Part shown: one piece after another, positions 588 through 15,667 of the stretch
Layout of the letters: each line of letters begins with the position of its first letter
How positions within the stretch are numbered: position 1 is the first letter of the stretch
Source of the DNA: Candidatus Aerophobetes bacterium Ae_b3b
Lineage (GTDB): Bacteria; Aerophobota; Aerophobia; Aerophobales; AE-B3A
Assembly: GCA_005223085.1 (NCBI GenBank)
Contig: NJBP01000013.1
Location: 1 to 39,340, forward strand
Direction: 5' to 3'
DNA length: 39,340 nucleotides
Translations under genes and position numbers: made by a program
The notes under the pieces: model-generated
Seen by the model: only the letters and a program-made list of their open reading frames with translations
Databases searched by the model: none
What the model was told of the DNA's origin: nothing

Positions 588-604
588 ATAAATGGGAAAA
601 GAAG

Positions 605-1567
605 TTATATTTTTAATTCTTCAATAAGGGGTGATATTCTCTCAATACAATATTTATCACACTCATATTCCATAAGAACTCCAATTAACTCATTTATATG
701 AACCGCTGGTATTTGTGGAGACTCACCGAAAAGATCTTTCATATCATCCCTGAATTTATTAAGAGAATAAAGACAAGTTGGGCAATTAGTAACTAATAAT
801 TCAGCTCCAGCACTTTCTGCACTTTTTAATTTATTAAAAGTAATTTGAAGTGCTTCGTCTCGATGTATTACGTTTTGAGATGCCCCCCAACCGCAGCATG
901 AATCTCGTTCTTGATACTCTATAATAGAACCACCCAAAATAGTTAAAATATCTTCTAATTTATTTTTGGGGGCAATAAAACTATGGATATCTTTTTTATC
1001 TAATAATAAATTAAGATAATGACATCCATAATGTACAGCACATTTTAACCCATTTAATGAATATTTTAATCTTTCTCCAATCTGTTCTCTAATTAAATGT
1101 AGGAAATCTATGACATGAACTATTTTCAATTTTGGAGAGAATAAGATATCTTTTTTAAATTCTTTTAAAATTTTAGTTGTTTTTTCCCTTATATCTTTCG
1201 AATTTAAAAATTTACGTCCTCTTAATAACGAAAGGTAACAACCATTACAAGAAACAATCAATATATCTGCTATTTCATTTATAGATACAATATTCCTCTC
1301 ATTAATTGCGGCGAACTGAGCTCTAGTTATTAAATTTCTCTGGAGAAAAGTTCCAGAACAGCAAGATTGCTCCAAAGATGTAGAAACTTGTAAATCAAAG
1401 TCTTCTAACATCGATTTTAAACAAGTTCTTATCCCGGGATAATAATATTCTAAACATGCTTTAAATAAACATATTTTCTTATCTTTAAAAAAATCTAAAG
1501 GATTATCATTATAAGTTTGTAAAATCTCATCTGTATCCAAAACAACTGATTTAATATAACCCTCCAT
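605..1567 (-). CDS. hdrB: Heterodisulfide reductase subunit B-like protein (two CCG domains)
   Basis: A 320-residue protein with two cysteine-rich CCG domains, the HdrB signature that binds the non-cubane [4Fe-4S] clusters reducing CoM-S-S-CoB-type disulfides. Domain 1 has Cys38, CC at 69-70 and CNGC at 107-110. Domain 2 has Cys182 (GCHYL), CC at 224-225 (SCCGWG) and CPTC at 262-265. No membrane segment is visible, so it should be cytosolic. It follows hdrC on the same strand with a 23-bp gap, so the two probably form one transcript and complex. Whether the substrate is CoM-S-S-CoB cannot be told, since HdrB-like subunits are widespread in archaea and bacteria that lack methanogenesis. Confidence 0.88.
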   Translation of the reverse strand: MEGYIKSVVLDTDEILQTYNDNPLDFFKDKKICLFKACLEYYYPGIRTCLKSMLEDFDLQVSTSLEQSCCSGTFLQRNLITRAQFAAINERNIVSINEIADILIVSCNGCYLSLLRGRKFLNSKDIREKTTKILKEFKKDILFSPKLKIVHVIDFLHLIREQIGERLKYSLNGLKCAVHYGCHYLNLLLDKKDIHSFIAPKNKLEDILTILGGSIIEYQERDSCCGWGASQNVIHRDEALQITFNKLKSAESAGAELLVTNCPTCLYSLNKFRDDMKDLFGESPQIPAVHINELIGVLMEYECDKYCIERISPLIEELKI

Positions 1568-1590
1568 CTTTTTGATCGAAACTCCAATAT

Positions 1591-2091
1591 TTACTCTTCA
1601 ATTCCAATATTTTTTTTGCTTGCTTTATGAAGATATTTGATTCTCGCAAATTCACAGATCTTTTTTATCTCTTCAATTCTTTCAGAAGGTAAATCAGATT
1701 CTTTCATTACAGTACCATTTTCTAAAAACCTTTTACACATTTTAACATATTTCTTCAATTGAGGAATATTATATCCTTTTTTAAAAGCTTCATTTCTAAG
1801 TGATAAGATAAATAAAGGTATATTAATACCCTCTTTGGGACAAATTTTTGAACACTTGTTACATAAAAAGCAATACCATATGTCTTCTTCTTTTAAAATT
1901 GACTCATCTCCAATCAAAACTTTTTCAACTATTTTCCGAATATTAAAATCCGAGATTTTACTCGCTGGACAATCACCGACACACTTCCCACAACTAATAC
2001 ATTGGATAATATTCCAGTTTTCATCAACATCTGTAATTATTCGATTGAAAAAATCCCAATTATATTTTGATTCGTTTTTGGTAGCCATCAT
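1591..2091 (-). CDS. hdrC: Heterodisulfide reductase subunit C-like ferredoxin protein
   Basis: 166 residues with two classic 4Fe-4S binding motifs: C31-x2-C34-x2-C37-x3-C41 (CISCGKCVGDC) and C74-x2-C77-x2-C80-x3-C84 (CFLCNKCSKIC), followed by a helical C-terminal segment. This is the HdrC layout; the protein passes electrons from a partner flavoprotein to the CCG clusters of HdrB. It is the first gene of a minus-strand hdrC-hdrB pair. No hdrA is in the window. The start ATG at 2091 is directly followed by a second ATG, and either could serve. The same layout occurs in GlpC-like and succinate dehydrogenase-like iron-sulfur proteins, but the neighbouring hdrB settles the family. Confidence 0.87.
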   Translation of the reverse strand: MMATKNESKYNWDFFNRIITDVDENWNIIQCISCGKCVGDCPASKISDFNIRKIVEKVLIGDESILKEEDIWYCFLCNKCSKICPKEGINIPLFILSLRNEAFKKGYNIPQLKKYVKMCKRFLENGTVMKESDLPSERIEEIKKICEFARIKYLHKASKKNIGIEE

Positions 2092-2137
2092 TAATAATTT
2101 CTTCCAAATTTTCTATATCTTAAATTATCTCAAATCT

Positions 2138-2150
2138 CTATATATAAAAA
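2138..2150 (-). promoter_or_regulatory. TATA-like box upstream of hdrC
   Basis: Read on the minus strand this is TTTTATATATAGA, an archaeal TATA-box-like stretch about 50 bases before the hdrC start. Its position would give a short leader. The whole region is AT-rich, so chance matches are common and the call is tentative. Confidence 0.3.
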
Positions 2151-2258
2151 TCAATAAAAAAGTTAATTGATTTTAATTTATAAAATATTTTCACAAATTT
2201 TTTATTTTGATTTAATTAAAGTCCTTATTTCAACTCATTCAAAAAAAAGAAAAACGAA

Positions 2259-3305
2259 TTATTTTTCTAATTCTTTAAAATATGGAATAATTTTATCTCT
2301 AAAAATTTCATAGACTTTATTTACATCCGGCCCTCTGTTCATTATTGTTAAATGTGTTGCTCCAGCTTCTTTATATTTCTCTATGCTTGCTATAACATCA
2401 TCTATTGTTCCCAAACAATTGAAATCTTGAAGAATAGTTTTGGGTAGTTGGTCTACATATTTTAATAACTCCATTGCACCCTCACTGCTCATATCAAAAT
2501 TATGAATTGTTAAATCACTGGATAAATTTATATTTGGATAAGCTTCATTGAGTATTGAAGTATTGAGTAAGTAAGATATCTTAAAGAATTCGCATCTTTT
2601 AATTGCATTTTCCGGATTTTTATCATCGATTGCTACAAAACAATCATATACATAATCAATCTCCGAAGGATCCCGACCAGCTTTCTTTGCAGCATCAGCC
2701 ACTCTCTCTTGATTTTTTTTATATACCCAAGGAGGTTGATAAAGTGGATACCATCCATCTCCTAATTCTCCAGTCAATTGGCGAGTTTTTGGACCATTTC
2801 CAGCAATGTAAATTGGTGGGCTTTTTTGAATCGGTTTTATTTGAATATAAGCCTTTTTCATCTCTCCCCAGAATTCACTTTTTGCATTAACTTTTCTTTT
2901 AGTCCAAAAATCTCTCATTAGAATTATATATTCTTTTAATTTAGTTAATGATCTTTTCCGATTCATTCCATACATGTCAATATTCATCGCCTCACCAGCT
3001 CCAATACCAAACATAGCTCTACCATTGCTAATATGGTCTAAGGTAGCCACTTTATGAGCCATTAGAGCAGGATGGAAACGATGACAATCAGAAACTCCGG
3101 TACATAAAGAAACCTTATTCGTTATCACTGCCAATGCCGATAAAAAACTAAAAGCATCAAAGCAAATACCTGGTCCTGGCGGTAACATAGCTGTGTGATC
3201 TGCATAAAAAACAGAATTAAATCCACATTCTTCAGCTTTTTTAGTTCCCTCAAACATAAAGGAGATTCTAGGCGTTGGTACGGGAATATGAAATCCAAAC
3301 TTCAT
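2259..3305 (-). CDS. LLM-class (F420-dependent) oxidoreductase
   Basis: 348 residues of the luciferase-like monooxygenase TIM-barrel family (PF00296). Visible marks are the N-terminal strand MKFGFHIPVPTP, EECGFNSVFYADH, the conserved central block ISNGRAMFGIGAGE (about residues 91-104) and IYIAGNGPKT with GDGWYP near residue 180. In archaea this subgroup generally uses coenzyme F420, as in methylene-tetrahydromethanopterin reductase (Mer) and F420-dependent alcohol or sugar-phosphate dehydrogenases. The sequence alone does not separate these, so no symbol is given. It is a single gene in a minus-strand row, with a 167-bp AT-rich gap to hdrC. F420 use is inferred from family and context. Confidence 0.8.
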   Translation of the reverse strand: MKFGFHIPVPTPRISFMFEGTKKAEECGFNSVFYADHTAMLPPGPGICFDAFSFLSALAVITNKVSLCTGVSDCHRFHPALMAHKVATLDHISNGRAMFGIGAGEAMNIDMYGMNRKRSLTKLKEYIILMRDFWTKRKVNAKSEFWGEMKKAYIQIKPIQKSPPIYIAGNGPKTRQLTGELGDGWYPLYQPPWVYKKNQERVADAAKKAGRDPSEIDYVYDCFVAIDDKNPENAIKRCEFFKISYLLNTSILNEAYPNINLSSDLTIHNFDMSSEGAMELLKYVDQLPKTILQDFNCLGTIDDVIASIEKYKEAGATHLTIMNRGPDVNKVYEIFRDKIIPYFKELEK

Positions 3306-3356
3306 ATTTTTAAAAATTATCTAAACCTATTAAAAATTTAGTATTAAAAATAAAAA

Positions 3357-6242
3357 TTATAGGTAAATTTCTTTTTTTCGAGCGTAATACTTTACTAGTT
3401 CAAAACCAACAATTGTAATTGATGAGATTAAGAAACAAATTAGCCAATCTAATGCAGTTAGATACATAAACATGAAATTAATCACTATATGTGCTAAGCC
3501 TACTTGGACTCCGGGAACATACATTATTAATAGAAACACAGCAAATAGAAAGCCTAGAATTAAATACATTCTTTTATTACTTTCTTCTTTTATGCTTTTT
3601 ATCAAAGATTTATTAGGGCGTCTTATTTGTAGAACTAAAATTGTTTCAGAGAAAAACAATGTAGTCATTAGCATAGTAAGTGTCTTAGCAACGTTTAAAT
3701 CAATCCCTGGAGTCAAATACATTGTTTCAGTTGTGAAAAGATAACCAATATTTAGAATATTAAATTCATAATTCAATGGAAAAGCGGGATATATTCCTGT
3801 AATACAAATAGAATAAACAACTCCCATACTGATCGCAAGTAATCCACCAAATACTAGAAGTAGTATAATGATATTTTTAGATAAAATTTCTTCGGAATCA
3901 CGAGGTTTCTCTTTCATTATGTCTTTAGATGTAGTATCGAAAGTTAAAACTAGACCTGGGAAAGCATGAAGAGTAATTGACAAGAAAATCCATTGTAAGT
4001 AATATTCTTCCGTTAGGAAATATGGCATTCCTAAAATGGCAAATAAAATAAATTGAAAAATCCCTTCAAATAAATTTATACTTATGTAAAAAAATACTAC
4101 TGTTCGAATTCTTGTAAAAATTCCTCGGCCTTCTTGAATTCCTTCAACAATAGAAATAAATGAATCATCAGAAATTACCATATCAGAAGCTTCTTTCGCA
4201 ACATCAGTTCCTTGTATTCCCATGGCGATACCCGCATCCGCCATATTTAAAGCTAAAGCGTCATTAACTCCATCTCCTGTCATCGCAACAACTTTCTTCT
4301 GATCTTGATATTTTTCAACGATATCTTGTTTGTGTTCAGGAGATACTCTGGCGAAAACTCTTATTTTATTCAATTCTTCAAATGATTCAATAGACTTTAT
4401 TTGACTACCTTCGATTACTACTTCTCCTTCAGATAAGATTGCTATTTGAGATGCAATTGCTTCTGCGGTATTTAGGGAATCTCCAGTTATCATTATAACT
4501 TCTACTCCAGCATTGTTGCATAATTCAACGGATTCTTTTACACCTTCTCTTGGAGGATCTAAAATTGTAACAAATCCAATATAAATCATATCTTTTTCGC
4601 AATTTTCTCTACTTTCCTCGAGATTTTCAGGTAGGATGTCTATTTTTTTATAACATAGACTCAATATCCTGTATCCCATGTTTGCATATTTATTAACATT
4701 ATTCAGAATCTCCTGTTTCAAGTCTTCAGATAGATCAACTTCTTTATTATGATATAAAACTCGTTTACATTGCGGAATCAAAACTTCGGTTGCCCCTTTC
4801 GTAAATGAGTAAAATTCTTTTTCTTTTTTATATATTTTAGTCATTCTTTTTATTGAAGAATCAAATGGGTATTCTCTTACGAATTTAAACTCTTCATCAA
4901 CATTATAATCTTGTATGGATTTTTGATATAATACATTAAGGGCTCCTTCAGTTGGCGAGCCAATTATATCATATTTATTAATAAATTTTTGACCTTTTGT
5001 GGCAGTTTTAATCTCTTTTTTAACTAAAGCTGAATTATTATTAAGAAACCCTGAAATCAGCAATAGTTTCAACTGAGGATATTTTTCTACATTTTTAATA
5101 ATTTTAGGATTCTTTATATCGTCCATCAAAATGATGTCTCCTTCTGGATTATAGCCACTTCCAGAAATTTTAAATATTGAACCATTTACCCAAATATATT
5201 GCACACACATTTGGTTTTTAGTTAAAGTCCCAGTCTTATCTGAACATACAACGCTTACTCTCCCTAAGCTATCAACTGAGGCAAGATTTCGAATTACAAC
5301 TCCTTTTTGAGCCATAAATAAAACTCCAGTTAATAATACAATCGTTGTAAGTAGAGGTATGTTAATAGGCATTATGTCCATTGCCGAGTTTAAACTATCT
5401 ACTATTTCAAAAGTTGTAAATCCACTCGCAATCAATTTAATCATAAACGTTCCGAACCAGAATATCAAAACTGCTAATCCTAGCCATTTTCCAAAGTTAT
5501 TCATCTTTTCTCTTATAGGAATTTCACTTGTTCCTGCTTCTTCCATTAAATGTGAGATTTTACCAATTTCAGTATTGCCACCAGTCCTAACTGTTATTGC
5601 TTTACCATTTCCTGTTGCAATAAATGTTCCGTAGAACATCATATTTTTCCGTTCTGAAATAGGAATTTTTTCCTCACTAAGAACTGTTCCTTTCTCTAAT
5701 TTTTTTACTGGCTCACTCTCCCCCGTTAGACTAGATTCATTAACCAATAAATTTGAGGATTCAATAATCCTAGCATCTGCCGGAATTCTATCTCCTTGAT
5801 TTAAAACTAATAAATCGCCTGGAACAACATTATTTGTGGGTATTTGTTTCTTTTCACTATCTCTCATAACAACAGTGGTAGGTGCAGATAATTGTCTTAA
5901 TGCTTCAAGCTTCTTTGTAGCACGATATTGCTGAACAATTGCTACGACACAATTCATTCCGACAATTCCTAAAGTTAAATAAACTATTCCTAGATTTCCT
6001 TCTTCTAAAAATACAACAGCTAAAAATAGGATTAAAGCACCTACTAAATATATTACTATAAGCCAATTGAAAAGAGGTGCTAAATATACTTTAAAAATAG
6101 ATTTCTTAACTTTAGGAATCTCATTTAATCCATATAATTCGAGCCTTTTCTTAGCCTCAATCTCAGTTAATCCAGCATTTTCAATAGTTTGAAAAACTTC
6201 ACGAATTTCTTGAATAGATTTGTTATAATAAATATCGTTCAT
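3357..6242 (-). CDS. P-type cation-transporting ATPase (type II-like), copy 1
   Basis: A complete 961-residue P-type ATPase. In order: N-terminal cation-ATPase domain (residues 1-70), two membrane helices, the actuator domain with TGES at 173-176, helix M4, the phosphorylation motif SDKTGT with the acceptor Asp335, the nucleotide domain with KGAT, the hinge TGDGVNDA, and a C-terminal six-helix bundle. Overall plan is that of SERCA/PMCA pumps. The M4 motif is PINIP (292-296) instead of PEGLP, and the M6 position of SERCA Asp800 appears to be His (LHAFPG). The usual calcium ligands are therefore partly gone and the transported ion is uncertain. M5 still shows an N-x2-E pattern (NLFE). A paralog lies upstream with a 59-bp gap on the same strand. 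Confidence 0.92.
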   Translation of the reverse strand: MNDIYYNKSIQEIREVFQTIENAGLTEIEAKKRLELYGLNEIPKVKKSIFKVYLAPLFNWLIVIYLVGALILFLAVVFLEEGNLGIVYLTLGIVGMNCVVAIVQQYRATKKLEALRQLSAPTTVVMRDSEKKQIPTNNVVPGDLLVLNQGDRIPADARIIESSNLLVNESSLTGESEPVKKLEKGTVLSEEKIPISERKNMMFYGTFIATGNGKAITVRTGGNTEIGKISHLMEEAGTSEIPIREKMNNFGKWLGLAVLIFWFGTFMIKLIASGFTTFEIVDSLNSAMDIMPINIPLLTTIVLLTGVLFMAQKGVVIRNLASVDSLGRVSVVCSDKTGTLTKNQMCVQYIWVNGSIFKISGSGYNPEGDIILMDDIKNPKIIKNVEKYPQLKLLLISGFLNNNSALVKKEIKTATKGQKFINKYDIIGSPTEGALNVLYQKSIQDYNVDEEFKFVREYPFDSSIKRMTKIYKKEKEFYSFTKGATEVLIPQCKRVLYHNKEVDLSEDLKQEILNNVNKYANMGYRILSLCYKKIDILPENLEESRENCEKDMIYIGFVTILDPPREGVKESVELCNNAGVEVIMITGDSLNTAEAIASQIAILSEGEVVIEGSQIKSIESFEELNKIRVFARVSPEHKQDIVEKYQDQKKVVAMTGDGVNDALALNMADAGIAMGIQGTDVAKEASDMVISDDSFISIVEGIQEGRGIFTRIRTVVFFYISINLFEGIFQFILFAILGMPYFLTEEYYLQWIFLSITLHAFPGLVLTFDTTSKDIMKEKPRDSEEILSKNIIILLLVFGGLLAISMGVVYSICITGIYPAFPLNYEFNILNIGYLFTTETMYLTPGIDLNVAKTLTMLMTTLFFSETILVLQIRRPNKSLIKSIKEESNKRMYLILGFLFAVFLLIMYVPGVQVGLAHIVINFMFMYLTALDWLICFLISSITIVGFELVKYYARKKEIYL

Positions 6243-6301
6243 TAAAATTTCACTTTTTTTATCTTACTACCAACATAATAAATAAACTTTAAAAATTTTG
6301 A

Positions 6302-9220
6302 TTAGAAAAATATTTTTCGTTTTCTTGCAAAATATTTAAAAAGTTCAACACCGATAACGCCTTGAGCAACAAAAACAAGCACCCAAATCCAATCTGTTGG
6401 ACTTAAAAACATATAATTAAATTGAAAGTTTAAACCTAGAACATCATTTATCGCATAATTGACAGGATATGAAAATATTATAAATAAAACGTGTATTAAA
6501 ACACAAAACATACTCATACCCATTAAATATTTGTCGAATTCATTGATAAAACTTTGTTTGAATGAATTATTTGGACGTCGTATGCTCCAAATAAAAATTG
6601 TTTCAGACAAAAATAATACCGTCATACACATAGTTCTAGCTTTTTGGTGTGCTAAATTCATTGGCATAACTAACCTATCTGAACCATATAGTTCGGGCGC
6701 CAAAATATAACTCAGATTTGGATCCAAATTAAACTCATTTATCGGTATTACACCAAAAAACGTAAAATAATATGATAAAGCAAATCCCAAGCCCATTAAA
6801 ACAGCTTGAACAATTAATAACACAATTAATTGCCTATTTAATATTTCTTCCTCATTTCTTGGAGGTTCTTTCATAATATCTTTTGGAACTGTATCTACTA
6901 CTAAAGCAAGTGATGGGAAAGAATGGACAATTGCAAACACATATATATGCTGCCAATTATTAAACAACTTAAATCCTTCAATAGGAAGAAATTCTGCAGT
7001 AAAAAAGAAAACCGCTACCACAATATTTATGCAAATGAAGAAAAATATTATTACTCTAATTCTAGAAAAAATTCCACGACCAATTCTCACTCCTTTTTCT
7101 ATTGATACAAAATTATCATCAGAGATTACCATATCAGATACTTCTTTTGCAACATCAGTCCCAGTTATACCCATTGCAATCCCAGTATTAGCTAATTTAA
7201 GTGCAAGAGAATCATTAATTCCATCTCCAGTCATTGCTACGATACGATCTTGTTCTTGGTATCTACTAATAATTTTTTCTTTATCAGATGGAACCACTCT
7301 CGCAAAAACAGATACTTTATTGAAATCTTCTATTTGTAAAAGCTCTATATCTTTTCCCTCAACAACGAAATCCCCCTCATCAAAAAGGTCAATATTTTTT
7401 GCTATTGCTTCGGCCGTTGCTGGATGATCACCTGTGATCATGACCACGTCGATTCCTGCAGATTTACAATTTTTAACTGCCTCAATTACTCCTTCACGAG
7501 GTGGATCTAAAATTACTACAAATCCTAAGAACACTAAATTAATTTCAATTTCATCTCGATTAAATTTTTCATTTTTCGCTATAGGTTTATCTATTTCTTT
7601 ATAGGCAATACTTAATGTTCGATATCCACTCTCTGCATATTTCTTAATTGAATCCAAAATTTCTGATTGCTTGTCATCATTTAATAATTTAATTTTTTTA
7701 TTAAATACAATTTGATTGCATCTTTTCACAATTATTTCAGAAGCACCCTTTACAAATGCATAATATGTTTTTTGTTTCTTACTTTTAGGTTTATATATTG
7801 TGCTCATTCTCTTAACGGAAGAGTCGAATGAAAATTCTTGAATATATTCAAATTCATCTTTTAATTTGTTAAGATCAAAACCAGCTTTTTCAGCCAATAC
7901 TAATAATGCAGCTTCCGTCGGGCTTCCTAAAGCACGTCTAATTCTTTTGGTTTTTATTTTTTTTGCTTTAATTTTTACCTCTTCTTCAATTAACGAAGAA
8001 ATATTATTCAAAACCATAGATGTAATAAAAAAATCAAAATGATTTTTCTTATTAAAATTAGCTCGTTGACCATCTATTTTAATTTCTCCCTCTTTATCAT
8101 ACCCAACACCCGAAACTTCATAGATTTTATCGTCAAACCAAAATTTAATGACAGTCATCTCATTCTTTGTGATTGTTCCAGTTTTATCTGTACAAATAAC
8201 TGAGATCCTGCCCATAGATTCTATTGCTGATAAGTTTCGAATTATTACACCAGTTTTTGCTAAATTAAGCACTCCTGTGAGCATAACTAGTGTGGTCAAA
8301 ATAGGGAGATTTATAGGGATAACATTCATAGATCTAATTATTGCAGCAATTAATTCTCCTTTGATATTTTCAGAAGTAAAAATATCAAGTAGTGCTAATA
8401 CGCTTAATTTATATATCACCAAAATTGAGAGATTTATAAATACGATAATAACTAACCATTTAGCAAAATTATTCATTTTCCTTGTTAATGGAATATCTTC
8501 TATACTTCCCATCTCATTTAAGGTTTGAGAGATTTTTCCAATTTCTGTTCTTATTCCGGTCCTGGCAACTATTGCTTTCCCTCTTCCTGTAGCAACATAA
8601 GTTCCCATAAATGCCATGTTAAGCTGTTTTTGTAAGGGAAGCTCCTTTTTTTCGATAATATTTTCATTCTTTTCAATTGAAACACTTTCTCCAGTTAATG
8701 GTGCTTCATTGATTGATAAATTTATACTTTCTATTAATCTTGAATCCGCTGGAATTTTATCTCCTTGATTGATAACTATTATATCACCCGGAACAAGTTC
8801 TCGAGTTTCTATTTCTATTTGTATCCCATCTCGAATTACAGTTGTAGTTAATGCCGAGATTTTTTTCAAAGACTCTAACGCCTTTTGGGCTCTATACTGC
8901 TGAATGATTGCAGTTAATGAATTTGCTATAATTACGCCCCAAGTTATATATGTAGAAGCTGGGTCTCCCAAAATCAAAATAATTATTCCAGAAATAATCA
9001 AAATAACAATTAAAAAATTAAAAATAGGCGCTAAATATACCTTCCAAATCGATTTTCTTATTTTTTGAAGCTCATTAAAACCATATTCTTTAGTTCTTTC
9101 TTCAATTTCGTCCTGTTTTAATCCCATCTCAACATTTGTATTTAAATCCATTGAAATTTTTTCAGTTGAATAGTTGTAAATTGGTTTGGAAGGTATTGCT
9201 TTTATCCTTTCTGGAGGCAT
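6302..9220 (-). CDS. P-type cation-transporting ATPase (type II-like), copy 2; native start lost at the junction
   Basis: 972 residues as read, parallel to its downstream paralog: LTGES at 175-179, PINLP at 302-306, phosphorylated Asp345 in TDKTGT, KGAS, TGDGIND and a C-terminal membrane bundle with VHSFPS at the SERCA Asp800 position. Alignment by eye puts IYNYST (residues 14-19) opposite IYYNKS near the start of copy 1, where only three residues precede it. The first ten or so residues here (MPPERIKAIP) are the antisense of the sugar-permease reading frame that begins at about 9183. The annotated start is therefore an artefact of the join, and the true start codon is missing from this window. 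The rest of the protein looks intact. Confidence 0.9.
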   Translation of the reverse strand: MPPERIKAIPSKPIYNYSTEKISMDLNTNVEMGLKQDEIEERTKEYGFNELQKIRKSIWKVYLAPIFNFLIVILIISGIIILILGDPASTYITWGVIIANSLTAIIQQYRAQKALESLKKISALTTTVIRDGIQIEIETRELVPGDIIVINQGDKIPADSRLIESINLSINEAPLTGESVSIEKNENIIEKKELPLQKQLNMAFMGTYVATGRGKAIVARTGIRTEIGKISQTLNEMGSIEDIPLTRKMNNFAKWLVIIVFINLSILVIYKLSVLALLDIFTSENIKGELIAAIIRSMNVIPINLPILTTLVMLTGVLNLAKTGVIIRNLSAIESMGRISVICTDKTGTITKNEMTVIKFWFDDKIYEVSGVGYDKEGEIKIDGQRANFNKKNHFDFFITSMVLNNISSLIEEEVKIKAKKIKTKRIRRALGSPTEAALLVLAEKAGFDLNKLKDEFEYIQEFSFDSSVKRMSTIYKPKSKKQKTYYAFVKGASEIIVKRCNQIVFNKKIKLLNDDKQSEILDSIKKYAESGYRTLSIAYKEIDKPIAKNEKFNRDEIEINLVFLGFVVILDPPREGVIEAVKNCKSAGIDVVMITGDHPATAEAIAKNIDLFDEGDFVVEGKDIELLQIEDFNKVSVFARVVPSDKEKIISRYQEQDRIVAMTGDGINDSLALKLANTGIAMGITGTDVAKEVSDMVISDDNFVSIEKGVRIGRGIFSRIRVIIFFFICINIVVAVFFFTAEFLPIEGFKLFNNWQHIYVFAIVHSFPSLALVVDTVPKDIMKEPPRNEEEILNRQLIVLLIVQAVLMGLGFALSYYFTFFGVIPINEFNLDPNLSYILAPELYGSDRLVMPMNLAHQKARTMCMTVLFLSETIFIWSIRRPNNSFKQSFINEFDKYLMGMSMFCVLIHVLFIIFSYPVNYAINDVLGLNFQFNYMFLSPTDWIWVLVFVAQGVIGVELFKYFARKRKIFF
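9175..9195. other. Breakpoint between archaeal-like and bacterial-like DNA
   Basis: Homology to the P-type ATPase (minus strand) ends within a few codons of where homology to an RbsC-type permease (plus strand) begins. The permease frame has a TAA at 9177-9179 immediately before its conserved GIAFILSGG block. Left of this point the DNA is strongly AT-rich and archaeal in content; right of it the composition rises and genes are bacterial. Both genes are cut and neither has a promoter here. An assembly chimera is the simplest reading. Confidence 0.75.
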
Positions 9221-9761
9221 GCCGATAGCTTTATATAAACCTTCTTTTTTTTATGTTTTATTAGGACAGGGAAGATTATTTGGACTTATTCCTGTTCCAG
9301 CTATCTGGTTAGTTGTGGTATGTCTAATTGGTTATTTTTTCTTACACCACACTAAATATGGATTTGAAGTTTATGCTACAGGGGGAAATAGAGAAGCAGC
9401 AAGACTCTGTGGGATAAATACCAGTAAGATTAAGTTAATTAGTTTTATCATTACAGGCATGGCTGCAGCCTTTGCTGGTCTCGTATCAGTTGCTTATTTA
9501 GGATCGGTTACGCCTAGACAGGGGATGGGAATTGAACTTGAAGCTATCGCGGCATCGGTTATTGGAGGAGCCTCCCTATTGGGAGGTGAGGGAAGTATTT
9601 TAGGAGCCTTTCTCGGGGCATTCATTATGGCGGAAATACGGAATGGGTTGGTCATAAAAGGCGTAGGTGCGTATTGGCAAGATGCTCTGTTAGGTTTGGT
9701 AATAGTCATAGCGGTAGTTCTTACAGCTCAAATCCAGAGAGGGCGAGCTACGCAAAGCTAG
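9183..9761 (+). CDS. RbsC-type sugar ABC transporter permease, C-terminal part only
   Basis: About 190 residues matching the second half of ribose/xylose/galactose ABC permeases (BPD_transp_2 family): GIAFILSGGMPI, GQGRLFGLIPVP, the helix LHHTKYGFEVYATGG, the hallmark NREAARLCGI (E. coli RbsC has NEAATRLSGI), then ELEAIAASVIGGASLLGGEGS and a last transmembrane pair. A full RbsC has about 320 residues, so roughly the first 130 are missing, ending exactly at the breakpoint. A TTG at 9186 can be read as a start, but no promoter or ribosome site serves it. No ATPase or binding-protein gene follows. A terminator-like hairpin lies about 100 bp downstream, suggesting this was the last gene of its operon. 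Confidence 0.88.
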   Translation, partial: GLEGIAFILSGGMPIALYKPSFFYVLLGQGRLFGLIPVPAIWLVVVCLIGYFFLHHTKYGFEVYATGGNREAARLCGINTSKIKLISFIITGMAAAFAGLVSVAYLGSVTPRQGMGIELEAIAASVIGGASLLGGEGSILGAFLGAFIMAEIRNGLVIKGVGAYWQDALLGLVIVIAVVLTAQIQRGRATQS

Positions 9762-9905: not shown

Positions 9906-10207
9906 CTCCCAACATACTTTCTGTTTTGATGAGTGTTTTTTAAGTACTCATCTAGTCTGCGTGATTTTTTGGAACGGGCAGGTTATAAAGAATAATAAAA
10001 AAGAATAATAAGAACTCTCTAAGTAGCTATAAAGCCTGAAAAGAAAACATTCCGAAGTTACCCACCTTTGCAATTCGCCTCAACTACAGAGAACATAATT
10101 TTTCCGAGTACTACACCAAATAGCAGTTTGATACAGGTCTTCTTCCCTCTTGTGCTGAATACAGACTTACTGCAAGCTGTTCTTTGCATTAAATATCAAT
10201 TTAAGAT

Positions 10208-10237
10208 CTGGAGACAGGTTGGGCAACCTGTGTCCAG
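10208..10237. repeat. Inverted repeat / hairpin
   Basis: CTGGAGACAGGTT pairs with AACCTGTGTCCAG across a four-base loop: a 13-position stem with one mismatch. No T-run follows on the plus strand, so a simple terminator is not supported. It may be a remnant of a mobile-element end or an RNA element. Confidence 0.5.
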
Positions 10238-10344
10238 GTACTCCCCCCAAAAAATGTCGAATTGGGCATATTTGGATTGGTCAGTCCCTTATTTTAAAGG
10301 AATCTTGGTCAATCTTTCCCTGTCTATCCAAACTGGGATAGGAG

Positions 10345-10504
10345 TCAGTCGATGACCCTGTCTCTCTGCTTTCTCCCCTTTTTCTCCTCCTTGATATCGT
10401 TGCAGACGGTAGATTTACTCACTCCTAATCGGGGAGCAAAAGGAACTGGTTCTCTGCGCCTAGCCAAACCGGTCTTCTCCGGTACTATTCAAAACTTCCT
10501 CCAT
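10345..10504 (-). pseudogene. Remnant of a small helix-turn-helix gene
   Basis: On the minus strand one frame ending at 10345 reads RLGVSKSTVCNDIKEEKKG and then a basic tail KQRDRVID. This is a good recognition-helix pattern (LGVSKSTV-x-DI). Going upstream, that frame meets a stop soon after its TTG codon at 10467. A neighbouring frame starts with ATG at 10504 and reads MEEVLNSTGEDRFG before stopping. The two pieces look like one short DNA-binding protein broken by a frameshift. It lies directly beside the repeat array. The match is short, so a chance resemblance is possible. Confidence 0.3.
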
Positions 10505-10540
10505 AATGGTGAAAATTCTATTTTTTCTTCAGAAATTCAT

Positions 10541-11320
10541 TCCTCCTGAAGGACAACCATTCCCGAAGGAATGTTGCTTATTCCCTTCAGAAGATACGGG
10601 ATTTCCTGAAGGAAATTACTTTTCCTCAGGGGCTCTGTGTTTCCTGAAGGAAATCCTGCAATGTCCCGAACTGCTATTGGCGTTATACCCTTTGCTTCCT
10701 TCAGGAACTTTGCTACTTCCTTCAGGAGATTTTTATTTTTCTTTGAGGACTTCCCACTTCGTTCAGGAAATTTTCACTTTCCTTCAGGAAATTTCTTTAA
10801 CCTCCTTCAGAACCTCTGAGAAATGAAACTCCCTTCAGGAGTCTTCGGGGGTCCTGAAGGAAAAACCGCCGTTGCTGAAAAGAAGACTGGTTCCTTCAGG
10901 GAAAATAAAGTTCCTGCAGGGAAAAGAGATGCCTTCAGGGAAGAAAAAGTTCCTTCAGGAGAATTAGAATTCCTTCAGGAAAACGGTGATTCTTTTATAA
11001 TAGTAAGAATTCCTTCAGGAAAGATAAAGTTCCTTCAGGAAAAACAAAGAGGAAGTGATCATGACCAAAATGGACGGAGTAAAGACGGTAAGGGTATAAA
11101 TTCCTTCAGGAGAATTAGGGCTCCTTCAGGAAAAACCCTCTTTATTTTGAGGAAAACGAATTCCTTCAGGAAATACTATCGCTCCTTGAGGAATAACTCC
11201 TGGTATTTTCAGGAGAAACTGCTGTTGGGAAAGAAGCTCTTTTCCTTCAGGAGTCCTGAAGGAAAAATTACCGTTGAGAATTTAAATGACAACTGATTTA
11301 AATTGAAAGCTCCCTGAGGA
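10541..11320. repeat. Array of a 10-bp near-palindrome (TCCTTCAGGA / TCCTGAAGGA) at about 20-bp spacing
   Basis: Sixteen exact copies of one 10-mer, counting both orientations. As TCCTTCAGGA: 10697, 10718, 10780, 10951, 10971, 11011, 11031, 11102, 11122, 11162, 11243. As TCCTGAAGGA: 10544, 10614, 10652, 10852, 11254. About ten near copies fill many gaps (for example 10561, 10759, 10803, 10831, 10892, 10912, 10931, 11183, 11311). Starts fall 20 or 21 bp apart, or at multiples of that: 10892, 10912, 10931, 10951, 10971, 11011, 11031. Spacers are AT-rich and mostly differ. Because 20 is not a multiple of 3, the repeat changes frame from unit to unit, so open frames across it are not selected as protein. 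The element should therefore act as DNA or RNA. Spacers of about 10 bp and the near-palindromic unit rule out an ordinary CRISPR array. Confidence 0.9.
11240..11266. repeat. 27-bp perfect palindrome at the right end of the array
   Basis: TTTTCCTTCAGGA (11240-11252), one central G, then its exact complement TCCTGAAGGAAAA (11254-11266). It is made of two array units placed head to head. A looser version with an 11-base loop lies at 10831-10861. It could extrude as a cruciform, fold as an RNA hairpin or serve as a double operator. Confidence 0.75.
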
Positions 11321-11848
11321 AATTCAAGAAATATGAATGGATAGTTTTTGATTTTTCTTGATATTCCTTGAAGATTGCCCCCACGGAAAATGGGCAAATA
11401 AGCAAAGTCACCCTGTTACCTAATTGAGATTGTCGCTAACGAGCTTGACTTCCAAATTGACTTCAGGAGGATTTGGTGGTAAAATAGGCATAAACGGTTC
11501 ACCGAGCAACGAGATTGTGATGAAACATCTAGCATTTGAAGGCCCCGATAGTGGCACCAAAAGACTCCATGTTGCAAGCTGCCCACTCTGCCCCCGGTCT
11601 CACGAGCTATATAAGACGGGAGGGTTTGTGACCAAAAGGAGGAGCGTATGGGCAAAGCCAGGAGTCGGTTTAGGTTTGATAGGGGCAAGAGGGATCTGGA
11701 GACTTACCTTTGTTGGCGTTAGAGATACATCATCTTCCTCGTGCACAAAGGGCTATCCACAGCGTGTACAGTTTAAAGTCTCCGACCCTGTTTTTTAAGA
11801 GAAAATTAAAGTAACGAGTTTAAAAAGTGATCATTACCGAAAAACCCA
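11321..11848. other. Stretch without a convincing gene
   Basis: Only degenerate echoes of the array unit (about 11365 and 11461) and short open frames are seen. The best small candidate is 11648-11722 (+). It has AGGAGG just upstream and 24 codons (MGKARSRFRFDRGKRDLETY and four more) before a TAG, with no known relative that I recognise. The 124-codon frame over 11424-11798 has no protein-like features. Confidence 0.4.
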
Positions 11849-12793
11849 ATGTTACAAAACTTCTCATGCAATGTTAGATCATTTTGTGATAAAGTCATAT
11901 CCTCCCTCCCTCAATTCTATGATGTGGATCAGGCTTTTTTTGTAGATGGTGAGCCAATTGAACCACGCAAAGAATTTGATTACACAATCAGGATGGTTAC
12001 AAACAGCTACTACCACCTCCACATCCCACTGCACGTAGCAAATAAGGATTTCACATTTCTTGAGTGTCTTCTCTTAAAACAAGCAGTTGAAGCAGGGGAG
12101 GTTGAAACCCACTGTCCGTTTGTTGTCAGTGTGCAATTTAACTTAAGAGCACGGAAAAAAGCTGAAAAAAAACTTGTTCGCAACTCTCTTGAGCTTCTCA
12201 CATCAAAAGATGAACGTTTCATGGAAAATCTCCTACGAAATCTCAACCTTGTGAGTCGGTATTCCCCATTTGCTGACATCCAACCATTCGGTATATCACT
12301 GACCACACTCCCTGTTTATCTCACGACTCTGCTTGAGGAGAGAACGTTAAATGAGTCATCGGTTGACTTCCTGAACGAGATCGTATTAAAGCTCATAAAA
12401 GACATAGGACTCGGGAAGCTGCTCACAATTCCCGAGCTGGCCTCACGATCAAAGAGTAAACAACTTCCTCTTACCAGAAAAAACACATCCTGGATAAGCC
12501 TTTTGCAAGACCTCATAAAGCCTCCCTATAACATACGACCCCAGATCAAAGCGGATTTTAGCACAATAAGGTGGTCTCACATACCTGCCCGCCTCGTTAT
12601 CTTAGGGCCTATTTTAGACCTGGTGAACGTACTCCGAGAGAGAAAAATTTTCAAGGTGTGTGAGAACTGCGGAAAGTTCTTCCTCCCCTACCGACCGCAA
12701 GAAGAAAAACACGTTTATTGTTGCAAGAAATGCCGAAAAAGGGCTGGGGAAAAAAGGCGCTACCAAGAAAGAAAAAAACAAAGCACACCTTAA
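11849..12793 (+). CDS. Uncharacterised protein with C-terminal CGNR-like zinc finger
   Basis: 314 residues. The body (1-265) is mixed helix and strand with no motif I recognise. The C-terminus has C-x2-C (CENCGKFF, about residue 270), then about 15 residues later a CCKKC cluster followed by RKRAGEKRRYQERKK. This arrangement, two cysteine pairs and a very basic helix, resembles the CGNR/DUF6076-type zinc fingers that bind nucleic acid. The start is uncertain because no clear ribosome site precedes 11849. It is the first intact gene after the repeat array and reads in the same direction as the recombinase module. A role in binding the array or regulating the element is inference only. Confidence 0.65.
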   Translation: MLQNFSCNVRSFCDKVISSLPQFYDVDQAFFVDGEPIEPRKEFDYTIRMVTNSYYHLHIPLHVANKDFTFLECLLLKQAVEAGEVETHCPFVVSVQFNLRARKKAEKKLVRNSLELLTSKDERFMENLLRNLNLVSRYSPFADIQPFGISLTTLPVYLTTLLEERTLNESSVDFLNEIVLKLIKDIGLGKLLTIPELASRSKSKQLPLTRKNTSWISLLQDLIKPPYNIRPQIKADFSTIRWSHIPARLVILGPILDLVNVLRERKIFKVCENCGKFFLPYRPQEEKHVYCCKKCRKRAGEKRRYQERKKQSTP

Positions 12794-13043
12794 GACACCA
12801 TACCTTTATTCCACGTCATATCAAACCTAGGAGTCTTTGCTCTCCCAGAAAATCTATTTTTTGTCCTTAGTCTCTGGAACTCCCAGAAAAGCAAATCGTC
12901 TGAACCCCTTTTCTGTGGCTATTCAGAGGCCTTTTTTTCACTATAATAAAGATGGAGCGATAACGTCACAAAAATATGCAGTCTCAACTAGTGATTATTG
13001 GGGAAATTACCGGAATTATCTGAGAGGAGGACGTAGCAGTAAA

Positions 13044-13478
13044 ATGCAACATAAATGCAACTTGTACGAAAAATGCAGTGCACCTTTTTGTCCCCTCGAT
13101 GCACGAATCAACAAGCGACTGTGGTTTTCTGACGAGCAGATCTGTGGTGCAAGGTGGACTCAGGCTCTTTCCTGGATCCAAGCCCAGAAGAAGATCAAAA
13201 AGAGAGCTCGTGACACATCGCGATATTTCACGCTGACAATGCTATCTCAAAACTGCCGCTTGAAGAAAGGTATTACAGGACTAAACCCGGACATGCCTGT
13301 TGAAACCGAGAGGAAAAGAATAGAAAAATGGTGCTTAAAACATCCACCAAAAAAAGAAGTGTCCCACGAGGAAAAGCAAGAATTCATAGAGAGAATGAAA
13401 AAGGCAAAAAGGGGAGATGTAAACCCCACGAAAAATATGCATCTTGGGCAAAAAAGTGCCCATACTCGACGCTTTTAG
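13044..13478 (+). CDS. Cys-rich conserved-type hypothetical protein of the recombinase module
   Basis: 144 residues from the ATG at 13044. I prefer this start because AGGAGG lies at 13025-13030 and the protein-like sequence begins here; the open frame upstream to 12837 looks like noise. The N-terminus has a compact cysteine set, KCNLYEKCSAPFCPLD, then WFSDEQIC about 20 residues later, which could bind zinc. After that come a basic helical middle (WIQAQKKIKKRARD), YFTLTMLSQNCRLKKGITGLNPD, and a charged tail. I recall similar small proteins next to serine recombinases in anaerobe genomes but know no function for them. The preceding 250 bp (12794-13043) shows no gene. Confidence 0.6.
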   Translation: MQHKCNLYEKCSAPFCPLDARINKRLWFSDEQICGARWTQALSWIQAQKKIKKRARDTSRYFTLTMLSQNCRLKKGITGLNPDMPVETERKRIEKWCLKHPPKKEVSHEEKQEFIERMKKAKRGDVNPTKNMHLGQKSAHTRRF

Positions 13479-13681: not shown

Positions 13682-13798
13682 ATGGAGAAACTGCTCCCGA
13701 TAGATGAGTCGGCAGAGATTTTATCGGTGAAAAGTCAACCCTCTCGGCTAGTCGTGAAACCTGACTTTCCCTACCCAAGAATAAGATGCAAGAGATGA
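13682..13798 (+). CDS. Short excisionase-like HTH ORF, possibly truncated
   Basis: 38 codons from ATG 13682, with a GGGAAGG stretch at the right distance upstream. The start MEKLLPIDESAEILSVK is typical of the first helices of AlpA/excisionase (MerR-like) HTH proteins, which usually continue into a recognition helix (S-T-L-x-x-W). Here the frame instead gives SQPSRLVVKPDFPYPRIR and stops. A one-base shift after SVKS would give TLSASRET before a stop, so a frameshift is likely. It overlaps the next gene by 13 bp. Its place directly before a serine recombinase is where a directionality factor is often found, but it may be inactive. Confidence 0.35.
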   Translation: MEKLLPIDESAEILSVKSQPSRLVVKPDFPYPRIRCKR

Positions 13799-13989
13799 GA
13801 GTTCTTAAAGAGGGAATAGAAGAGTATAGGCAACTGGTTAAGAGAAAATACTCTATTGAGATAACTCAGGCTCAAGCAGAGCAACAATTTAAAGAATTGT
13901 TGGCTCTTTTTCGAGTAATTTACAAGCCAATAAAAAGATTTGACAGGAATAATTTTTCCAAATATAATGCCAAAAATGAAAAGAAATAG
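13786..13989 (+). CDS. Small helical hypothetical protein upstream of recombinase
   Basis: 67 residues, very rich in charged helix formers: LKEGIEEYRQLVKRKYSIEITQAQAEQQFKELLALFRVIYKPIKR. The pattern (EGIEEY, later L-x-x-L-F-R-x-I-Y-K-P-I) resembles short proteins I have seen encoded directly before serine recombinases and phage genes; no function is known to me. Its end overlaps the recombinase start by 23 bp, which suggests translational coupling. Confidence 0.55.
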   Translation: MQEMRVLKEGIEEYRQLVKRKYSIEITQAQAEQQFKELLALFRVIYKPIKRFDRNNFSKYNAKNEKK

Positions 13990-15667
13990 GTACTTTATTT
14001 ACTGCCGTAAGTCCTCTGAAGCTGAGGACCGACAAGTCTTGAGCATAGAATCCCAAATAAGGGAACTAACCAACCTAGCAAAAAAATTGGACCTTCCTAT
14101 TATTGACGTTCTCACCGAATCAAAATCAGCAAAGGCTCCGGGTAGAAAAACTTTCAATGAAATGGTGCAGAGAATTTACAGGCGGGAGGCTAGTGGAATA
14201 ATTTGCTGGAAACTGGATAGGCTCGCAAGAAATCCTATAGATGGAGGGCAAATATCCTGGATGCTTCAGCAAGGAGTCATTAAGCACATCATAACAGCAG
14301 AGAGAAGCTATCTCCCTGAAGACAACGTTCTCCTTATGAACGTTGAGTTCGGCATGGCTAACCAGTTTCTCAGGGACCTCAGCATAAACACGAAGAGGGG
14401 CATGAAGGCAAAAGTTGAAAAAGGTTGGCTTCCTGGTGTTGCGCCTCTGGGTTACCTCAATAATAAATACAGAGACAAAGGAGAAAAAGACATCATAAGG
14501 GATCCTGAAAGATTTCCTCTCATTCGAAAGATGTGGGACTTGATGCTAACTGGGAATTATAGCCCTCCCAAAATTGCCGAGATAGCGAACAAAGAATGGG
14601 GCTTTAGGACCAGAAAGTTCAGAAAGCAGGGTGGAAAGCCTCTTTCAAGAAGCACGATCTACAAGATATTCACCGACCCCTTTTACTGTGGAATGATACG
14701 GTACAATGGTCAGCTTTATCCGGGAAAACATGACCCCATGGTTACAGTAGAGGAATTCGACAGGGTTCAGTTTTTGCTCGGAAAGAAAGGGAAGCCCAGG
14801 CCTAAGACCCACGAGTTTCCTTTCAGAGGAATGATAAGATGTGGGGAATGCGGCTGCCACATAACCGCTGAGGAAAAACACAAGCTTACAAAGTTAGGGA
14901 TCCACCACTACGTATATTACCACTGTACTAAGAGGAAGCAAGGTATCGAATGCTCTCAGCCTTCCATAAGACAGGAAGAGCTGGAAAGGCAGATCAAAGA
15001 AGAACTCTCAAAGATCTCGATTGATGAGGATTTTAAAAATCTAGCCCTGAAATATCTCGGAAAGGTTCACGATGAAGAAGCTAAAGACAGAGCTTCTATT
15101 GAGAAATCACTGCATAAAACTTATGAGGATACTCAAAAACAACTTGATAACTTAACTGATTTGCGCGTCAAAGAAATGATAACTGACAAAGAATACCTGG
15201 ACCACAAAAACCGACTTCTCATAAAAAAGGAGCGGCTTAAAGAAAAAATAGATGATACTGAACACAGAGCAGATAAGTGGCTCGAACTCAGTGAGAGAAC
15301 CTTTACTTTTGCCTGCTATGCAAGATACTGGTTTGAAAATGGAAGTCTTGAGGAGAAAAATACAATTCTACAGGCGATAGGTTCGAACTTTATCCTGAAA
15401 GACAGGAAACTCTTTATAGACCTTAAGAACCCGTGGCTGATCATCAAGAAGGGATTGGAAGAAGTGGGATCGGAAAAAAGCAGGTTAGAACTTTCACAAA
15501 GGCTTGCCTCTTCTGAGGTTGAACCTGCTCTCGCTTCCGTTAGTTCTGCTTGGCTCCCCGGACTGGACTCGAACCAAGAGGATAGTACGTCAAAATGTAG
15601 ACAAACAAATTGGTGGGTGTATTTCTTGGTTGAAGATCCGTCGGAAAGAATAGATTATGCGGGGTAA
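13967..15667 (+). CDS. Large serine recombinase (site-specific integrase)
   Basis: 566 residues from ATG 13967 (ATG 13976 is also possible; the TTG at 13940 is unlikely). The N-terminal resolvase domain has YCRKSS, with the likely nucleophile Ser16, then LSIESQ, and W-K-L-D-R-L-A-R-N-P. The recombinase domain follows at about 160-270 (GWLPGVAPLGYLNN, SRSTIYKIFTDPFYCG). A zinc ribbon (CGECGC, then C-x9-C around a YHCTKRKQGIEC segment) and a coiled coil at roughly 360-430 complete it. It cuts and rejoins DNA with a 5' phosphoserine link to integrate or excise a mobile element. The last codons (LPGLDSNQE) read antisense through a tRNA 3' end, so the element's attachment site lies inside the gene's 3' end. 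It is the last gene of the plus-strand module 11849-15667. Confidence 0.93.
   Translation: MPKMKRNRYFIYCRKSSEAEDRQVLSIESQIRELTNLAKKLDLPIIDVLTESKSAKAPGRKTFNEMVQRIYRREASGIICWKLDRLARNPIDGGQISWMLQQGVIKHIITAERSYLPEDNVLLMNVEFGMANQFLRDLSINTKRGMKAKVEKGWLPGVAPLGYLNNKYRDKGEKDIIRDPERFPLIRKMWDLMLTGNYSPPKIAEIANKEWGFRTRKFRKQGGKPLSRSTIYKIFTDPFYCGMIRYNGQLYPGKHDPMVTVEEFDRVQFLLGKKGKPRPKTHEFPFRGMIRCGECGCHITAEEKHKLTKLGIHHYVYYHCTKRKQGIECSQPSIRQEELERQIKEELSKISIDEDFKNLALKYLGKVHDEEAKDRASIEKSLHKTYEDTQKQLDNLTDLRVKEMITDKEYLDHKNRLLIKKERLKEKIDDTEHRADKWLELSERTFTFACYARYWFENGSLEEKNTILQAIGSNFILKDRKLFIDLKNPWLIIKKGLEEVGSEKSRLELSQRLASSEVEPALASVSSAWLPGLDSNQEDSTSKCRQTNWWVYFLVEDPSERIDYAG
15551..15578 (-). other. tRNA 3'-end fragment inside the recombinase gene: putative attachment site
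   Basis: On the minus strand: a weakened T-stem (CTTGG), T-loop TTCGAGT, CCAGT, then the acceptor strand CCGGGGA, discriminator G and CCA. This resembles the 3' end of bacterial tRNA-Asn genes with a TCCCCGG-type acceptor. No D-arm or anticodon arm follows at 15579-15660, so it is a fragment, not a gene. tRNA 3' ends are classic integration targets. T-stem pairing is imperfect (C-T mismatch, T-G pair), so the copy has drifted. Confidence 0.6.

Follow-up and report, generated by a model that had tools for sequence, protein, structure and literature searches.

A phased array of about 28 short palindromes in lineage-specific DNA of a Candidatus Aerophobetes bacterium: a candidate protein-loading site

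The parC unit of plasmid pSK41 is 20 bp long, and the iterons of sopC are longer, at 43 bp. Iterons of plasmid origins measure 17-22 bp, and their Rep proteins bind cooperatively, an effect abolished by a half-helical-turn shift between two iterons; a plasmid origin carries 2-7 of them (review PMC4980987). Centromere sites are repeats that each accept one dimer of an adaptor protein, and the dimers build filaments or bridges on them (PMC5016525). R1 parC comprises ten direct repeats, as stated in the title of a work cited by PMC5016525.

The locus described here lies in a 39,340-nucleotide stretch of contig NJBP01000013.1 from Candidatus Aerophobetes bacterium Ae_b3b (the window). Exact copies of the 10-mer TCCTTCAGGA or its complement TCCTGAAGGA occur 16 times, all within 10544-11263, with the window otherwise devoid of them. 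They start at positions 10544, 10604, 10642, 10697, 10718, 10780, 10852, 10951, 10971, 11011, 11031, 11102, 11122, 11162, 11243 and 11254, whereas window shuffles yielded 0.26 ± 0.44 copies in the whole window and never more than one. Read on the + strand, the centre is TC in 11 and GA in five copies. The extended consensus of the exact copies is TTCCTTCAGGAA, the preceding T and the following A or G each being present in 14/16. A preliminary description had listed the 16 exact copies, about ten near copies and a spacing of about 20 bp; our count reproduces this, with 12 further sites at up to two mismatches. Over the resulting 28 sites the core orientation is TC in 18, GA in six and other in four, and both arms are equally conserved. 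Successive sites are 19-22 bp apart in 15 of the 27 spacings, and 21 of the 27 fall into the classes of one, two or three pitches (20/40/60 bp), compared to a maximum of 16 in 100,000 trials of random placement. Hence, the array sites are phased at approximately two helical turns.

The array can be divided into blocks of differing orientation and spacer composition (Table 1). One unit pair, at 10951-10980, appears to be duplicated at 11102-11131, the spacers being GAATTAGAAT and GAATTAGGGC. Iteron origins have an A+T-rich region for unwinding beside their repeats. In the array, the A+T content over 11250-11349, which carries the inverted repeat of the right edge, is 68%, although other stretches reach 65-72% and this composition is hence not distinctive.

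Table 1 Positions of the array, its blocks and the neighbouring features in the window
Feature	Positions	Strand	Remarks
ATPase (Zot-like domain) and HTH gene relic	10184..10488	-	HTH C-terminus and 3' end; outside the array, breaks off ~40 bp away
Phased palindrome array	10525..11320	.	28 sites with <=2 mismatches to TCCT(TC/GA)AGGA, 16 exact; pitch ~20 bp
First block	10544..10651	-	three exact GA units: 10544, 10604, 10642
First block, inexact members			near units 10561, 10583; weak one near 10623
Second block	10697..10812	+	TC units 10697, 10718, (10740), (10759), 10780, (10803); spacers pyrimidine-rich
Third block	10892..11131	+	most regular portion; 20-bp pitch; spacers purine-rich
Abutting exact units, opposite orientation (11243+, 11254-)	11239..11267	.	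perfect inverted repeat TTTTCCTTCAGGA-G-TCCTGAAGGAAAA
A+T-rich inverted repeat AATTTAAAT-GACAACTG-ATTTAAATT	11279..11304	.	right edge of array
314-aa ORF	11849..12793	+	treble-clef-like zinc finger (CxxC...CxxC) at C-terminus; candidate binder at most
213-aa ORF	12837..13478	+	no family match
67-aa small ORF	13786..13989	+	overlaps recombinase ORF start
Large serine recombinase	13940..15667	+	Resolvase, Recombinase and Zn_ribbon_recom domains; phrog_95 integrase, E 7.9e-81
tRNA-Asn 3' end	15551..15575	-	within recombinase ORF end; 92% over 25 nt; likely attachment site

The 12-mer TTCCTTCAGGAA is found nine times in the 2.04-Mb assembly, with eight of these copies inside the array. This rules out a genome-wide junk repeat, and the concern that the 10-mer might be equally dense throughout the host genome is thereby dispelled. 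A collapsed or mis-repeated array in the assembly is unlikely because the flanks differ between units. The array is a real, non-random, single-locus feature. The two-unit pattern is absent from the other eight genomes of the family, and a two-unit sequence model, run on 17 genomes of the phylum, returned no second array cluster, its isolated matches being at chance level. Blastn searches with the array gave no match in the plasmid collection and three weak, chance-level matches in the phage collection, and a literature search with the 12-mer returned no relevant title.

A pattern scan of genome contigs gave, among the matches listed, none with the neighbouring genes of the array. Among these listed matches, the multi-copy loci L080, L087 and L121 were rejected as homologous arrays as they represent coding heptads, and L020, L026, L048, L070, L107 and L127 as they represent short tandem minisatellites. 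Pattern matches in viral sequences are mostly coding repeats. In one viral contig (L227:257-373), an ORF contains six TTCCTGTAGGAA repeats of 21 bp, which encode APLPVGN repeats and possibly correspond to origin iterons within an initiator gene.

We compared core and spacer conservation across the array. Pairwise identity over the 28 sites is 0.88 for the core and 0.33 for the spacers (9-12 bp), with a shuffled-spacer null of 0.28; as the sites were chosen by their core this pairwise comparison is biased, while the count of exact copies is independent of that choice. The spacer similarity of 0.33 was reached by 2 of 500 shuffles. This residual likeness, together with the one apparently duplicated two-unit stretch, would be expected of a degenerate minisatellite, i.e. 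a 20-bp tandem repeat expanded by slippage that is now decaying and functionless. Simple intergenic TTCC...GGAA arrays also occur in unrelated genomes (L026, Verrucomicrobiales; L070, Deltaproteobacteria; L107, Spirochaetales; L127, Bacteroidetes). These palindromic minisatellites share a TTCC-N3/4-(A)GGA core and a 19-22-bp period with the array, but they came from a search selecting for that core and so provide no evidence of kinship. Furthermore, they are shorter, with ~5-11 mostly near-identical tandem units in one orientation, whereas the single phased array described here holds both orientations. The Bacteroidetes example (L127:2455-2650) consists of approximately nine intergenic 21-bp TTCC-N3-AGGA units with a varying centre.

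Uniform decay of a 20-bp unit to the level of the spacers would leave at most ~0.6 exact cores in 38 slots, compared to the 16 seen, and 2.5 exact cores are expected if spacer identity is set at 60%. The difference between core (88%) and spacer (33%) identity means that uniform decay of a tandem repeat fails as an explanation, and we regard a functionless minisatellite as decidedly unlikely. Growth by local duplication did contribute to the array, as can be seen from the slight spacer likeness, the recurrence of the pair 10951-10980 at 11102-11131 and the conserved asymmetric TC/GA centre. The pattern of conservation suggests the cores are maintained by something that reads either orientation, the simplest candidate being a protein of two-fold symmetry that binds double-stranded DNA.

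Two ORFs cross the array, at 10506-10826 (106 aa) and 10823-11296 (157 aa), and both stay open because the unit contains no stop in those frames. Neither has a Pfam, NCBIfam or PHROG family match; the one Pfam hit obtained (E 0.13) is far under the family cut-off. The unit translates as PSG, FLQE and SFR in the three frames, and the array spacings modulo 3 are distributed 7/10/10. With spacings spread over all three frames and ORFs lacking any family match, the array is likely noncoding. The original statement that the region encodes no protein can thus be kept as likely, short of proof. In principle the unit could be the relic of a coding heptad repeat, as TCCTGAAGGA could encode (V)LKE within 21-bp coiled-coil repeats, and pattern matches elsewhere (L080, L087, L121 and L012) are such repeats or can be read that way. 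In their DNA, coding repeats with LKE codons and a 21-bp period can resemble the array, but they keep a fixed 21-bp frame and a single orientation. In the present array, the predominant pitch is 20 bp with frames spread as above, both orientations are present and the spacers share no codons, making a heptad relic hardly credible.

The AGGA motif is present in either orientation of the unit, and the + strand folds far better than its shuffles (z -7.2), as would suit an RNA element: once transcribed, the array would present numerous AGGA motifs or short hairpins and might act, for instance, as a CsrB-like protein sponge. However, the other strand folds equally well (z -7.5), as is the case for any palindromic array. 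Conservation of the TTCC arm equals that of the AGGA arm, which a loop motif would not show, and the flips in unit orientation make the loop alternate between UUCA and UGAA. No Rfam match was found. A CsrB-type sponge calls for the presence of CsrA, and no CsrA gene was detected in the 88.6%-complete genome by a search that was positive in control genomes. An RNA role, raised in the preliminary description as a less likely, Shine-Dalgarno-like alternative, is highly improbable on these grounds. The same description held the array not to be CRISPR-like, and we concur: CRISPR loci combine cas genes with repeats of ~23-47 bp that are separated by unique spacers, whereas the unit here is 10-12 bp with ~8-10-bp spacers and no cas family was found among the scanned ORFs.

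The recombinase module reported next to the array is borne out by the large serine recombinase, which sits 2.6 kb to the right. Alignment with a sister species (~91% identical) begins at 15554 and runs for more than 15 kb rightwards, with none leftwards, and the array sits in DNA missing from this sister species. A relative of the recombinase in G008 ends in the same tRNA-Asn piece. The tRNA-Asn piece, the homology to the sister species from 15554 only and the like ending of the G008 relative indicate that an integrated element carrying the recombinase module ends on its right at the 15554 junction. The locus has both a large serine recombinase and a likely att site at the host junction, as expected of a serine-integrase element. 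The tRNA-Asn 3' fragment recurs at L184:4295-4315 and L183:417-441, at the edges of lineage-specific DNA in related genomes, and is possibly an integration site used repeatedly.

A second, directly repeated copy of the right att site, as might mark the left element end, was not found within the window, and the left flank of the sister species has no match to the left part of the window. The array lies in lineage-specific DNA and may itself belong to the recombinase element. A recombinase relative, G016:C191, has no such array with its upstream DNA included, hence the recombinase family does not need the array. By eye, a small ORF similar to that at 13786 is located upstream of the recombinase relative in G016. 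Weak distant relatives of ORF 12837 (33% over ~55 aa) are present at G001:C107 and G000:C76.

To the left of the array, the ATPase/HTH gene of which a relic remains is multi-copy (L185:5873-7102, L186:1494-2864 and L187 at about 1951-2062), with a P-loop and, in L186, a Zot-like match (PF05707, E 1.9e-5). Past this gene in L185, a conserved TTAAATATCAATTTAA adjoins a cluster of TGTCCAA/TTGGACA sites and resembles a mobile-element end. A truncated sugar ABC permease at 9222-9761, retaining only the second half of BPD_transp_2, lies next to a change in G+C at ~9.2 kb, from 0.28-0.34 at 8000-9250 to ~0.42 further right. It is preceded by a pair of adjacent cation P-type ATPases (3357-9220). Positions 600-9760 of the window have no counterpart in five family members. 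At 1-587, a fragment of a MinD/ParA-like ATPase runs off the contig start (MinD-like at 180-587; TIGR01969, E 7e-7), 10 kb from the array. The area looks like the landing site of several elements, partly decayed.

We favour, with moderate confidence, the array as a partition- or replication-type (centromere- or iteron-like) nucleoprotein site of an integrated, possibly decaying mobile element. A dimeric DNA-binding protein would occupy the ~28 two-fold symmetric sites (TTCC-TTCA-GGAA), one dimer per site, and the two-turn pitch would put the copies side by side on one face of the helix, where binding may be cooperative. The loaded array could then serve the resident element as a partition centromere or as an iteron replication/copy-control site. 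The view of the array as a protein-loading site is well supported at the level of anatomy. The preliminary description had proposed an iteron, partition site or multi-operator, and this stands as far as the symmetry, the use of both orientations, the two-turn phasing, the near-random spacers, the single locus and the mobile-element surroundings are concerned, while the three alternatives are not separated by these observations and the binder is putative. Against the partition- or replication-type site, conservation extends to the asymmetric TC/GA centre, for which a dimer site of pure two-fold symmetry has no need, and the array has 28 sites, far more than the 2-7 iterons of plasmids (PMC4980987).

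Neighbouring genes bear on the same question. No ParA/ParB, ParM/ParR, TubZ/TubR or Rep genes were recognised near the array among the Pfam-scanned window ORFs and the element ORFs. The adjacent motor and adaptor genes of a partition centromere (parAB, parMR or tubZR) are therefore not seen, the sole ParA/MinD-like ORF being the distant fragment at the contig start. As in an iteron origin, several phased repeats are gathered at one locus (28 sites, 20-bp pitch), but a cognate Rep initiator gene was not found among the scanned ORFs. Candidate binders are the orphan ORFs 11849 and 12837, a host protein or a lost protein. The protein encoded at 11849, put forward earlier as a zinc-finger protein that might bind the array, does possess a treble-clef-like C-terminus, but no relative indicates DNA binding: none was found in the phylum, phages, plasmids or IMG/VR, nor in the PDB. 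A single-sequence structure model was unusable (mean pLDDT 40).

ORF 11849 is also the next sizeable ORF downstream, and as a putative regulator gene it invites an alternative in which the array is a multi-operator, a silencer or repressor sink for an autoregulator (the zinc-finger protein or a lost regulator) that controls excision or expression as opposed to partition or replication. The anatomical evidence applies equally to this possibility. However, the last unit is ~530 bp upstream of ORF 11849, with 11320-11849 lacking any site at up to one mismatch; 28 sites are many for an operator; and DNA binding by the zinc-finger protein finds no support in family, structure model or PDB searches. 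We thus consider a multi-operator unlikely, if a serious contender. A more specific and very unlikely version of the partition- or replication-type site is that the array acts in cis within a novel segregation or replication system that belongs to an integrative element in a poorly sampled phylum, with a binder of an undescribed family, possibly encoded at 11849 or 12837, placing ~28 dimers on one DNA face.

If the array is a protein-loading site, it would constitute a large (~28 sites) phased single-palindrome array with no partner gene recognised, from a phylum for which few genomes are available. The array is a ready probe, and a binding protein found with it could belong to a centromere, iteron or regulator family of integrative elements that has yet to be described.

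Iteron-type plasmids carry a Rep gene and, at their origins, 2-7 iterons in direct orientation, whereas the array consists of inverted repeats in either orientation with no recognised initiator. Shared with iteron origins (RK2, P1, F, R6K) and lambda-like phage origins is approximately one repeat per two turns, where phasing matters for cooperativity. The sopC, OB and omega-parS sites differ in that they come with ParA/ParB-type genes, none of which was recognised near the array; the likeness lies in short inverted repeats that dimers bind, whether at a single locus or at many (PMC5016525). Type II parC sites (ParM/ParR; R1, pSK41) are direct repeats beside a par operon, as opposed to ~28 symmetric sites in both orientations with no recognised parM/parR, but there, too, short repeats are packed into a compact non-coding stretch, on which dimers of the adaptor assemble into a helical nucleoprotein filament (PMC5016525).
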